From positions 2,356,001 to 2,420,000 of the forward strand of contig NZ_CP061739.1 in NCBI RefSeq assembly GCF_014770435.1: a stretch of 64,000 bases of DNA, given 5' to 3'. Origin of the DNA: Psychrobacter sp. 28M-43. GTDB lineage: Bacteria > Pseudomonadota > Gammaproteobacteria > Pseudomonadales > Moraxellaceae. The notes beneath the pieces were generated by a model. It was not told the origin of the DNA and ran no database searches. It saw only the letters and a list, made by a program, of their open reading frames with translations. Numbering within the stretch: the stretch's first letter is position 1; each line of letters opens with the position of its first letter. This document shows, piece after piece, positions 46,303-49,765 of the stretch. The translations under genes were made by a program, and so were the position numbers.

Positions 46303-47115
46303 ATGTTAAAACTTGCAGCGCTACCTAATATCTCTACACGTACTATGTTTAGCGCGTTTACCGCTACTGCACTATTTAGTGTGGCTAGCCTGTCTAACGC
46401 CGCACTTTTTAATGATAACCTGCCGACTGACAAAGATGCTGAGCTCAGCGTTGGGGTCAATGTCATGGCGGTCAAATCAGCCTATGATCTCGAAGATAGT
46501 ACTGAAGTGCGCGTGCTACCAGGTGCATTTTATGACAATAACAAAGTCTATGTACGCGGTGCGCAAGCTGGTGCGTATCTGATCAACGATGGTGTCAATC
46601 AGCTGTCTGCCTATGCCAAGCTTGCAGGTTCTGAGTTTGAACCTGATGATGCCAATGGCGCACTGCAAGGCTTGGATGAGCGTAAATCCTCAGCAGAAGC
46701 AGGTCTTAGCTATCAGCGTCGTACGGCTATTGGCGGCATCCGCGCGCAGATAGGTGCTGATGTATTAGATCGTAGTGGTGGTAACACAGCTCGCTTGACC
46801 TATCTCTCTAGAATCACCAAAGGCAAGCTAACGGTCTATCCAAGTATTGGCTTTGAATATCATGATGCTGACTACAATGAATACTACTATGGTGTCAGTG
46901 AAAAAGAGGCTGCTAAAACAGGCGTTGACGCTTATAAATCTAACTCAAGCCTGAATCCGTATATCAACATTAGCGCTAACTACGACTTTAATGAGCGCTG
47001 GGCAGGATTTGCCAATCAAAGCGTAAGCTATGTACCAAATGAGCAGTACGATAGCCCAATGGTCGACTCACGTACTGAAGCAGCGACGACACTTGGTTTG
47101 CTTTATAAGTTCTAG
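46303..47115 (+). CDS. MipA/OmpV family outer-membrane protein
   Basis: 270 residues with a signal peptide (cleavage probably after SLSNA near residue 33). The mature protein alternates beta strands with polar turns and ends in Phe (LGLLYKF), as outer-membrane barrels do. The segment NEYYYGVSEKEAAKTGVDAY is characteristic of MipA/OmpV proteins (in MipA it contains the conserved YYGV). In E. coli MipA scaffolds murein enzymes; elsewhere relatives take up or resist antibiotics. The exact role here is unknown. A strong terminator follows at 47138-47174. Confidence 0.85.
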   Translation: MLKLAALPNISTRTMFSAFTATALFSVASLSNAALFNDNLPTDKDAELSVGVNVMAVKSAYDLEDSTEVRVLPGAFYDNNKVYVRGAQAGAYLINDGVNQLSAYAKLAGSEFEPDDANGALQGLDERKSSAEAGLSYQRRTAIGGIRAQIGADVLDRSGGNTARLTYLSRITKGKLTVYPSIGFEYHDADYNEYYYGVSEKEAAKTGVDAYKSNSSLNPYINISANYDFNERWAGFANQSVSYVPNEQYDSPMVDSRTEAATTLGLLYKF

Positions 47116-47137
47116 TTGAGCTTAGAAGTTTGATAAC

Positions 47138-47174
47138 AAAAAGACCTTACCGCGTGATGTGGTAAGGTCTTTTT
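47138..47174. terminator. Bidirectional terminator after mipA, left flank of the HEPN gene
   Basis: Perfect 14-bp stem AAAAAGACCTTACC/GGTAAGGTCTTTTT. It ends mipA on the + strand and the convergent HEPN gene on the - strand. Its stem is almost the same as that of the terminator at 48196-48243. Confidence 0.93.
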
Positions 47175-47195
47175 TTATGGAACATTTGATAAAAA

Positions 47196-48074
47196 CTATA
47201 CTTTAACCTTTGAGATGTTTTCTCCAATTTCTTGGATAGCTGCCTTCAATACATGTAAACATATTTTGGCGGTATCTTCTCTTGGATTAAATCCAACACT
47301 CATTTGCTGATGCGGATGAATATAGTTCCGAAAATCTCGTAGCGTATGGCTAAACCTCTGTATATCATGTTGTACCAAACCTAATTCATAAGCAACATCA
47401 ATAAAAGCGCTTAACGACCATTTGGAGAGTTCGTAAACTTTACCTGATTTATCCTTAGGAGAGGATTTTGCAGTATTAAAATGTCTAGGATACTGATTCG
47501 CTAAACCTAACAAAATTCCTTCGAGAGTACTGCCTGCTATGATAATCACAGACAAATAGGCTTCTGAAGAATAGCACCTTTCTATTTCTTTTATTCTTCC
47601 TTCTATTACTTCCGACACCATTCCTTCTAATCCAATTTTCTGTACAGAAACATTTGAAAATTCTCGTCTTAAAAATTGGTTCTCAGTAGTAGTCTGAGTA
47701 GGTTTTAAAGGCTCCTGCACCTCAATCTTATCTAGCCGCTTAAAATCAATGTTAGCACCGTTACGAACCACCTTCCATTTATCAAAAGCAATATATTTAT
47801 TAAATCCCGCGATGTATGTATCTAGGTCCTCTAAACGCTCTATAAAATTCGCAGGATTAAACAACTCTTTGATACAACGACCTAGCTGAGGAGACCCATT
47901 AATAGCTTCCAATTTGTCATCAGTATACGCCCAGCGTGAGGGGAAACCCTGGCCGTAAGTATCATTGAATCCAAAACTGTTAAATAGGCGAACCAGCTGA
48001 GGACCTGTCCTATACTCAGTATCTTCATTAATCAAAATACGTAATTTCTCAAGCGACTTAGAACTTAAAAACAT
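47196..48074 (-). CDS. AbiJ-like N-terminal domain plus HEPN domain protein (putative abortive-infection RNase)
   Basis: 292 residues. The N-terminal domain (about 1-115: YRTGPQLVRLFNSFGFNDTY, then GQGFPSRWAYTDDKL) resembles the AbiJ-NTD3 type domains that occur upstream of HEPN domains in phage-defence proteins. The C-terminal half (about 150-290) is helical and contains a HEPN-style active-site motif, RDFRNYIHP (Arg246/Arg249...His253, with Asn250), typical of metal-independent RNases. GGAG lies seven bases before the ATG. Codon use looks foreign (AGA, AGG and ATA where neighbours use CGT and ATC). It stands alone between mipA and fumC, bracketed by two similar terminators. Defence role is inference; no partner antitoxin is visible. 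Confidence 0.65.
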   Translation of the reverse strand: MFLSSKSLEKLRILINEDTEYRTGPQLVRLFNSFGFNDTYGQGFPSRWAYTDDKLEAINGSPQLGRCIKELFNPANFIERLEDLDTYIAGFNKYIAFDKWKVVRNGANIDFKRLDKIEVQEPLKPTQTTTENQFLRREFSNVSVQKIGLEGMVSEVIEGRIKEIERCYSSEAYLSVIIIAGSTLEGILLGLANQYPRHFNTAKSSPKDKSGKVYELSKWSLSAFIDVAYELGLVQHDIQRFSHTLRDFRNYIHPHQQMSVGFNPREDTAKICLHVLKAAIQEIGENISKVKV

Positions 48075-48195
48075 TCATGAGCTCCAGTTTTATAACATAT
48101 ACGATAGTATATAGCTAAAAATCAGTCATAGCTTTTTTCTCTAGCAGTCAGTATATAATGTTAATCTATTAATTTGATATGCAAATTACAACCAA

Positions 48196-48243
48196 AAAAA
48201 AGACCTTGCCACATTCTCATACAAGAAGTGACAAGGTCTTTTT
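48196..48243. terminator. Terminator of fumC, right flank of the HEPN gene
   Basis: Stem AAAAAGACCTTG/CAAGGTCTTTTT with further inner pairing CACATTCT/AGAAGTG. It lies downstream of fumC on the minus strand and upstream of the HEPN gene. It resembles the terminator at 47138-47174. Confidence 0.82.
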
Positions 48244-48280
48244 ATTTCTAACTTCTCAGTGGAAAAAATATGATGCTGCT

Positions 48281-48337
48281 ACCAGAAAGACGAATGCAAA
48301 TTGTACTTATCGTACATTAAGCGAGTCTGACGCCGTA
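48281..48337. repeat. 57-bp dispersed repeat, copy A (3' of fumC)
   Basis: Matches 56477-56533 at 48 of 57 positions. Contains AATGCAAATTGTAC, a 5-base loop, then GTACATTAA and GAGTCTGACGC. The TGTAC/GTACA stem is identical in both copies; three of the nine differences fall in the loop. It lies 25 bases from the fumC stop and just right of a terminator. Confidence 0.8.
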
Positions 48338-48361
48338 GCAGGTCATTATTTGGTCTACTGC

Positions 48362-49765
48362 TTACTTAGGATGTACCATATCAGCAGGAATTACCCACTC
48401 ATCGAACTGAGCTTCAGTTAGTAGCTCTAGCTCAACCGCCACTTGCTTCAAGGTCTTGTTTTCTTTATAAGCCGTCTTAGCGATTTTTGCAGCGTTTTCA
48501 TAACCAACATGACGGTTCAATGACGTGACTAGCATCAATGAATTGTGCAAGAAGTCATCGATTTTGTCTTTTACTGGCTCGATACCAACGGCACAGTTTT
48601 CGTTGAAGCTGTTGCAAGCATCGCCAAGCAGTTTGATAGACTGTAACAAGTTAAAGGCGATAACTGGCTTATAAACGTTTAGCTCAAAGTTACCTGATGC
48701 GCCAGCCATGCTGATAGTGGTGTCGTTACCCATGACCTGAGCGACAACCATGGTCATTGCTTCTGACTGAGTTGGGTTTACTTTGCCTGGCATGATAGAA
48801 GAGCCTGGCTCATTTTCAGGAATCGTCAACTCGCCCAGACCGCAACGAGGACCTGAAGCCAACCAACGTACGTCGTTAGCGATTTTATTTAAGCTGGCTG
48901 CTAGCGTTTTTAATGCGCCTGACGCAAATACTTCTGCATCACGAGCGGCTAGTGCTTCAAATTTGTTCGGTGACGTGACAAATGGTAAGCCAGTCAAAGT
49001 CGCTAGTTGCGCAGCTGATTTTACTGCATAGTCAGGATGGGCGTTTAGACCAGTACCAACCGCAGTACCACCTAGTGGCAATTCATATAGGCCTTGTAGC
49101 GCGTTGTCGATACGAGTTAACGCGTGGTCAAGTTGGCTTACATAGCCGCTGAACTCTTGGCCTAAAGTCAAAGGCGTCGCGTCTTGTAAATGCGTACGAC
49201 CGATTTTTACGATGCTATCGAATTCTTTGGCTTTAGCCGCTAGTGTATCGCGTAGTGCTTTTACCGCTGGAATCAACAAGCTGTTAATTTGACGCGCAGC
49301 AGCCACACGAATCGCCGTTGGGAAGCTGTCGTTGGTAGACTGTGCATGGTTTACATGGTCATTTGGGTGAATTGGCGTGTAGCTGCCACGCTCAGAACCA
49401 GCGATTTCGTTGGCACGGTTGGCCAATACTTCGTTCATGTTCATGTTTGACTGGGTGCCAGAACCTGTCTGCCATACAACCAATGGGAACTGATCGACCA
49501 GACCACCATTGATGATTTCGTCAGCGGCTTGTACGATAAGGTCACGCTTGTCGCCTTCGATACGCTCTAGGCTTGCATTGGTAATCGCAGCGGCTTTTTT
49601 GACCAGTGCCATCGCTTCAATCATTGGACGCGGCAAAGTCTCGCCACCGATTTTGAAGTTTTCGCGGCTACGCTGAGTTTGCGCACCCCAATAAGCATCA
49701 GCTGGGACTTCTACGTTACCCATGGTATCTTTTTCGGTACGAGTTGCCTGATTCTGTGTCGACAT
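48362..49765 (-). CDS. fumC: Fumarate hydratase class II
   Basis: 467 residues; iron-independent, oxidation-resistant fumarase of the TCA cycle (tetrameric, aspartase/fumarase superfamily). The superfamily signature [15 protein letters not shown] is present, with [32 protein letters not shown] and [13 protein letters not shown] as the other active-site segments. No cysteine-based cluster is expected. A homologous class I enzyme could exist elsewhere. It ends 25 bases from repeat copy A and its terminator lies at 48196-48243. Confidence 0.97.

Follow-up and report, generated by a model that had tools for sequence, protein, structure and literature searches.

A predicted single-gene abortive-infection protein with a HEPN domain on a cassette between fumC and mipA in Psychrobacter

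Introduction

One known kind of abortive-infection protein places a small N-terminal module ahead of a C-terminal HEPN domain, a layout described for the AbiJ-NTD1 plus HEPN proteins and for Lactococcus AbiJ. In the survey by Anantharaman et al. 2013 (PMC3710099), AbiJ-NTD1 is fused to the AbiJ, DUF4145 and Ymh HEPN families, to HKD phosphoesterases and to kinases, with AbiJ-NTD1-DUF4145 fusions listed and the same module type standing ahead of PLD/HKD nucleases; AbiJ-NTD3 is fused to AbiJ, ABC ATPases, a nuclease, TIR domains and kinases; and the AbiJ-NTD modules are proposed to contact viral components and perhaps to hold the C-terminal toxin in check. According to three further sources, the anti-phage kinase Stk2 is activated by a phage protein (review, PMC6532042), the DUF4145-type protein BxaP defends Escherichia coli against T4, likely by abortive infection (PMC10799925), and the minimal mobile elements of Neisseria are differing whole-gene cassettes, often restriction systems, between two conserved genes (PMC3898611). 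Here we analyse a gene with this module-plus-HEPN layout that lies between fumC and mipA in Psychrobacter sp. 28M-43, within a stretch of 64,000 nucleotides (positions 2,356,001 to 2,420,000 of NZ_CP061739.1; hereafter the window). As judged from its sequence and a predicted structure, it probably encodes a single-gene abortive-infection protein carried on an exchangeable cassette.

Results

A HEPN domain behind a module shared with other defence proteins

The gene starts with ATG and encodes 292 residues, with RDFRNYIHP at residues 246–254. Both the open reading frame (ORF) and the motif are as given in an initial annotation of the window, which proposed a HEPN-type anti-phage protein acquired by transfer, and its assignment of the C-terminal half to HEPN was borne out: the predicted model gave a structural match to the HEPN helical bundle over residues 148–292, and a non-HEPN fold was not obtained. 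R246, R249 and H253 are invariant in 66 aligned sequences and also in 27 domain sequences that include fusions to another N-terminus, and the domain is predicted to be an RNase acting through R246/R249 and H253. The query itself gave no Pfam match at E ≤ 1; DUF4145 (PF13643) matched 22 of the 66 aligned family members at this threshold (best 0.0018), and two relatives outside the 66 scored 17.6 and 19.4 against its cut-off of 23.1. Among Pfam models the HEPN domain is thus nearest to DUF4145, below the curated cut-off. Searches of solved structures by sequence with the query returned no match, profile searches gave E-values of 0.098 or worse and were not used, and the viral fold library held no match at E ≤ 0.001.

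The same HEPN domain was found behind other N-termini at four loci (L139, L141, L142 and L143), whose N-terminal domain we take, by eye, to be of the AbiJ-NTD type; at L139 and L143 long ORFs are present directly or shortly downstream. Two proteins of 511–513 residues (L006:1372-2907 in G025 and L007:364-1905 in G048) have a C-terminus weakly similar to the HEPN domain, and in the one at L006 the part preceding this C-terminus scores as a type I restriction specificity domain.

The N-terminal domain recurs in Abi proteins of the Abi_C type, in fusions to PLD nucleases and in the N-terminal part of the Stk2 profile. Residues 20–103 match positions 22–114 of the 500 in the PADLOC Stk2 profile (PDLC02375, E 2.5e-10), and with the match confined to these positions the query shows no Stk2 kinase domain. 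PADLOC AbiJ (PDLC02347) was matched weakly (residues 12–82, profile positions 16–83 of 281, E 0.0021) and not over the whole profile, with nothing in the C-terminal half. Among the Stk2-profile matches listed for 398 genomes, most cover positions 104–367, taken here as the kinase part, and a few start at 63–77, so the N-terminal region of the profile looks like a separate module; the survey, with matches in 285 of the 398 genomes and probably swamped by ordinary kinases, says little about the N-terminal module itself. The module precedes Abi_C (PF14355) in Acinetobacter and Megaera plasmid proteins (hhalign 99.7% for Acinetobacter) and a PLD nuclease (PF13091) in another Psychrobacter genome (G102, L005:940-1740; hhalign 98.3%, 71 columns), and a search with the G102 module returned 46 proteins, and PLD domains were present in 45. 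Within the class, the N-terminal domain was detected in 2 of 369 genomes at E ≤ 1e-3, one being this genome.

With a DUF4145-type HEPN domain, PLD/HKD nucleases and a kinase as its partners, the module has the partner set of AbiJ-NTD1, and it fits an NTD1-like type by these partner domains, not by an AbiJ-NTD1 reference sequence. The initial annotation had noted a resemblance to AbiJ-NTD3, and Pfam contains an AbiJ_NTD3 model; no Pfam AbiJ-NTD model matched the query or the 66 members at E ≤ 1, and since the partner set fits NTD1 the NTD3 label was dropped.

Compared with the described systems, the protein shares the layout of the AbiJ-NTD1 plus HEPN proteins, but its module is about 115 residues long, against about 140, and is identified by partner domains. 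It differs from Lactococcus AbiJ in the HEPN half, which is nearest to DUF4145, and from Stk2, with which about 85 N-terminal residues are alike, in carrying a HEPN effector in place of a kinase. BxaP, set beside it by description and not by sequence, shares a DUF4145-type domain, but in BxaP this domain occupies the N-terminus, with a HEAT-like part after it, and the gene accompanies BREX (PMC10799925). Unlike HepT/MntA-type HEPN toxins, the HEPN gene has no second gene beside it in the interval, and its N-terminal module would be a regulator in cis.

Distribution of the family and transfer of the gene

The gene belongs to a large, widespread, unnamed HEPN family. A protein search gave 2530 relatives at E ≤ 1e-3; the best 120 are 63–99% identical and nearly always 287–302 residues long, 118 of them cover 98–100% of the query, and their named genera are Psychrobacter, Pseudomonas, Halomonas, Rheinheimera and a few other gammaproteobacterial genera. 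Twenty-six loci lie on named genome contigs, including Bacteroidota and metagenome-assembled genomes labelled cyanobacterium, Omnitrophica and Cloacimonadota (49–61% identity). This taxonomic spread at high identity fits horizontal transfer. Matches were also found in 21 plasmid records, of which seven match 80% or more of the query, and on 14 IMG/VR contigs (contig-level matches); annotated phage records gave no tblastn match to the gene. Of 5426 E. coli genomes, 6 carry DNA 65% identical over 93% of the gene, and five of these 6 belong to one strain. Both E. coli regions that were inspected (L206 and L207) are elements in which the homologue is accompanied by an integrase, a MobQ relaxase, a TIR protein, a reverse transcriptase and DUF3644; one element is next to ssrA and the other, in a different genome, next to yaeI. 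A Bacteroides fragilis plasmid (L169:4001-4150) holds a short stretch corresponding to residues 238–287 with no annotated gene, perhaps a remnant, and a Pseudomonas straminea relative (L122:10001-10876) is interrupted by an in-frame stop.

Composition sets the gene apart from 320 mechanically called reference ORFs of at least 150 residues, taken from the window plus 400 kb of the same genome. Its guanine-plus-cytosine fraction is 0.371 against a mean of 0.449 (standard deviation 0.024; 2 of 320 ORFs equal or lower), and AGA, AGG and ATA make up 4.8% of its codons against 1.4% (7 of 320 equal or higher). Of 105 genomes in the genus, 4 have a full-length copy, each time between fumC and mipA. 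Towards two of the other carriers, synonymous divergence (dS) is 0.18 and 0.23 for the gene; the corresponding values are 0.37 and 0.46 in fumC, 1.03 and 1.06 in mipA, and 1.82 and 1.28 in the gene after that. With dS lower than in its flanks, the gene has probably moved between at least some carrier lineages; flank replacement or constraint on codons could also play a part in the contrast. The atypical codons and the acquisition by transfer proposed in the initial annotation are thereby upheld, the gene being neither present in nearly all Psychrobacter nor native in codon use. Its defence-type reading also gains support, as some homologues lie beside defence genes and on mobile elements and the fumC-mipA slot holds other defence genes in related genomes.

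The fumC-mipA interval is a mixed cassette hotspot

All 105 genus genomes contain fumC, and 100 loci were surveyed after leaving out five with fumC partial or at or near a contig end (G037, G063, G066, G073 and G086). fumC and mipA lie in one stretch at 86 of the 100 loci; the remaining 14 have no mipA in the stretch, in three cases because the contig ended. The gap ranges from 84 to 3731 bp; over the 85 loci suitable for both measurements its standard deviation is 830, compared with 90 for the neighbouring mipA-rhomboid distance (328–683 bp). ORFs of at least 90 residues were found in 79 of the 86 intervals, giving 141 ORFs in 48 clusters, which were identified from one representative each (25 of the 48 scanned singly with Pfam and/or PADLOC; in the pooled annotation, 25 of 45 Pfam and 25 of 148 PADLOC families were listed). 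The cargo includes an AbiLi and AbiLii pair (G103), a TdeIII endonuclease with a C5 methylase (G003, G053), an NsnA/GmrSD protein (G023), a NucC-like DUF6602 protein (G034, G052), a PIN protein (G068) and a DUF4145 protein (G020, G083). The largest clusters are ACP-like (16 ORFs), redoxin (15), an unassigned 142-residue protein (9) and an EamA transporter (8); for several cargo ORFs neither Pfam nor PADLOC gave a match. The slot is a mixed cassette hotspot and not a pure defence island, and a few intervals contain transposase- or integrase-like ORFs. ACP-like and redoxin cassettes (L062, L044 and 29 further intervals) never share an interval in this set, and nearly all are the ORF adjoining fumC.

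In the window, the HEPN gene is the only substantial ORF between mipA and fumC; one 80-residue ORF (48179–48421, plus strand) overlaps the fumC-side hairpin and the fumC end. The statement in the initial annotation that the gene lies alone holds to this extent, but understates a hairpin-bounded cassette in a hotspot. In the open-access literature searched, we found no paper describing such a hotspot, with its often hairpin-bounded cassettes, in Psychrobacter or at fumC.

Copies of one terminator hairpin often bound the cassettes

The window's two hairpins of the AAAAAGACCTTG...CAAGGTCTTTTT class, T1 on the fumC side and T2 on the mipA side, fold strongly (z of -7.5 and -6.7). They are the only near-identical pair 0.2–4 kb apart among 103 hairpins with T/A runs in 464 kb. 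A genome-wide repeat or an uptake sequence was considered and rejected for this genome, which has exactly two exact copies, both in the fumC-mipA interval. Across the genus, 163 exact copies were counted in 86 genomes, 93 inside the interval and 70 outside, some of the latter with other loops. With two mismatches allowed (a rule whose background is 15 matches in 400 kb, every one with two mismatches), hairpins were found in 85 of the 86 intervals, and each of the six shortest gaps (84–199 bp) holds one. Among the 79 loaded intervals, a hairpin lies on the fumC side in 70, on the mipA side in 41 and on both in 36, leaving 43 without both; it separates neighbouring ORFs in 22 of 62 pairs, and on the mipA side of some intervals there is a hairpin of different sequence.

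In all four carriers the HEPN ORF is directly flanked by hairpins. Homology with G002 runs from the fumC-side hairpin through to the end, with the leader unmatched. Homology with G070 covers the leader up to the hairpin, which is followed by an extra redoxin ORF, and resumes at the start of the HEPN ORF, so this second break is not at a hairpin, the match resuming about 130 bp beyond it. Copies of one bidirectional terminator are thus often placed at the edges of cassettes, where they would be either recombination handles or the insulating terminator that each cassette keeps for itself. A fuller account, to which we give somewhat less than even weight, is that the slot is a terminator-bounded cassette system in which cargo, the HEPN gene included, takes along a copy of the bidirectional terminator hairpin belonging to the locus; recombination between hairpin copies would add, swap or delete genes without an integrase and give hairpin-gene-hairpin-gene-hairpin arrays. 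As in the minimal mobile elements of Neisseria, differing whole-gene cassettes lie between two conserved genes, here across species and not strains; the difference from those elements as described in PMC3898611 is that cassette edges are often at one bidirectional terminator hairpin. For the route of those elements, homologous recombination alone, dS suggests transfer, and some breakpoints are at hairpins while one is not.

Table 1. Positions of the gene, its predicted parts and its surroundings in the window
Feature	Position	Strand	Basis
Gene for the 292-residue protein with sensor-like N-terminal module and C-terminal HEPN domain	47196..48074	-	ORF list, family search, fold model
Predicted N-terminal domain (residues 1–115; helices and beta-hairpin in the model)	47730..48074	-	profile/alignment matches, fold model
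Low-confidence linker (residues 116–130)	47685..47729	-	pLDDT <50 at 123–129
C-terminal HEPN domain (residues 131–292; structural match 148–292)	47199..47684	-	alignments, structural comparison
Predicted catalytic motif R246-D-F-R249-N-Y-I-H253	47316..47339	-	alignments
Interval (hotspot) between fumC and mipA holding the gene	47116..48361		genus interval survey
fumC-side bidirectional terminator hairpin (T1)	48197..48243		hairpin scans, folding
mipA-side hairpin (T2), same class	47138..47174		hairpin scans, folding
fumC, conserved hotspot boundary	48362..49765	-	ORF list, genus survey
mipA, conserved hotspot boundary	46303..47115	+	ORF list, genus survey
pLDDT, predicted local distance difference test.

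Discussion

The reading that we favour draws on the gene and its domains, the HEPN fold and its invariant motif, the sharing of the module, the foreign composition, the transfer within the genus, the hotspot and the duplicated hairpins, each supported by the analyses above. The AbiJ-NTD1-like module would restrain the C-terminal HEPN RNase and recognise a trigger made by the phage; once the cell is infected, the HEPN domain would cut RNA by means of R246/R249 and H253, probably in dimeric form, and this would halt the cell. The gene would have entered this genome by transfer. Within the genus it would move as a cassette of the fumC-mipA slot, and the probable route is homologous recombination in the hairpins and in the core genes on either side.

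Several observations weigh against this. The predicted active-site loop (residues 248–252) has a pLDDT below 50 and the model a predicted template-modelling score (pTM) of 0.50, so that catalytic geometry and domain interface are not resolved in it, and a structural match of middling Z arises by chance among helical bundles. HEPN motifs usually have the spacing Rx4-6H; R249-x3-H253 is shorter and only R246-x6-H253 fits. For the fourth carrier, dS is 1.24 for the gene, 0.99 for fumC and 1.75–1.77 for mipA and the next gene, and a recent transfer is unsupported there because the gene is not below fumC. Location alone does not imply defence either, because the largest identified cargo clusters are non-defence. 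Near 18 relatives, several of 126 neighbouring ORFs have hits to defence models, those of type I, II and III restriction included, in a screen for which 25 of 266 matching families were listed and which had no control set. A sigma-70-like promoter was looked for upstream of the gene and none was found, and the open papers searched yielded no phage or RNase assay of the protein family.

An unlikely alternative is that the protein serves defence against plasmids or other incoming DNA, or supports restriction-modification, its HEPN RNase being released by restriction products or conjugation. Relatives near restriction genes of types I, II and III and on integrase/MobQ elements would fit this, as would the tie of HEPN to restriction systems drawn by Anantharaman et al. 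2013 (PMC3710099), but apart from the redoxin ORF in one of them the intervals of the four carriers hold no second ORF of at least 90 residues, and the N-terminal module is shared with the phage-triggered kinase Stk2. Slightly less likely again is a regulator of stress or RNA processing with no part in defence, present as chance cargo in a slot rich in metabolic genes. The prominence of ACP-like, redoxin and EamA cargo would fit such a role; the sporadic distribution, the transfer, the invariant HEPN motif, a module common to Abi proteins and a kinase, and the defence-type neighbours elsewhere argue against it. That the gene is a non-functional remnant of a transferred gene seems very improbable: broken copies do exist, as in P. 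straminea, but here the ORF is intact, the invariant residues are kept and the ratio of nonsynonymous to synonymous divergence (dN/dS) to the nearest carrier is about 0.18.

With the abortive-infection reading preferred, the gene is likely a new member of the known abortive-infection proteins that combine an N-terminal module with HEPN. The comparisons indicate that one kind of module makes up the N-terminal part of Stk2 and also stands ahead of HEPN and PLD effectors, so that sensing can be tested by swapping effectors. The hairpin-bounded cassette slot is the less expected part: lying between two core genes throughout the genus, it provides a list of candidate defence genes, and its layout suggests a simple, integrase-free exchange of single genes.
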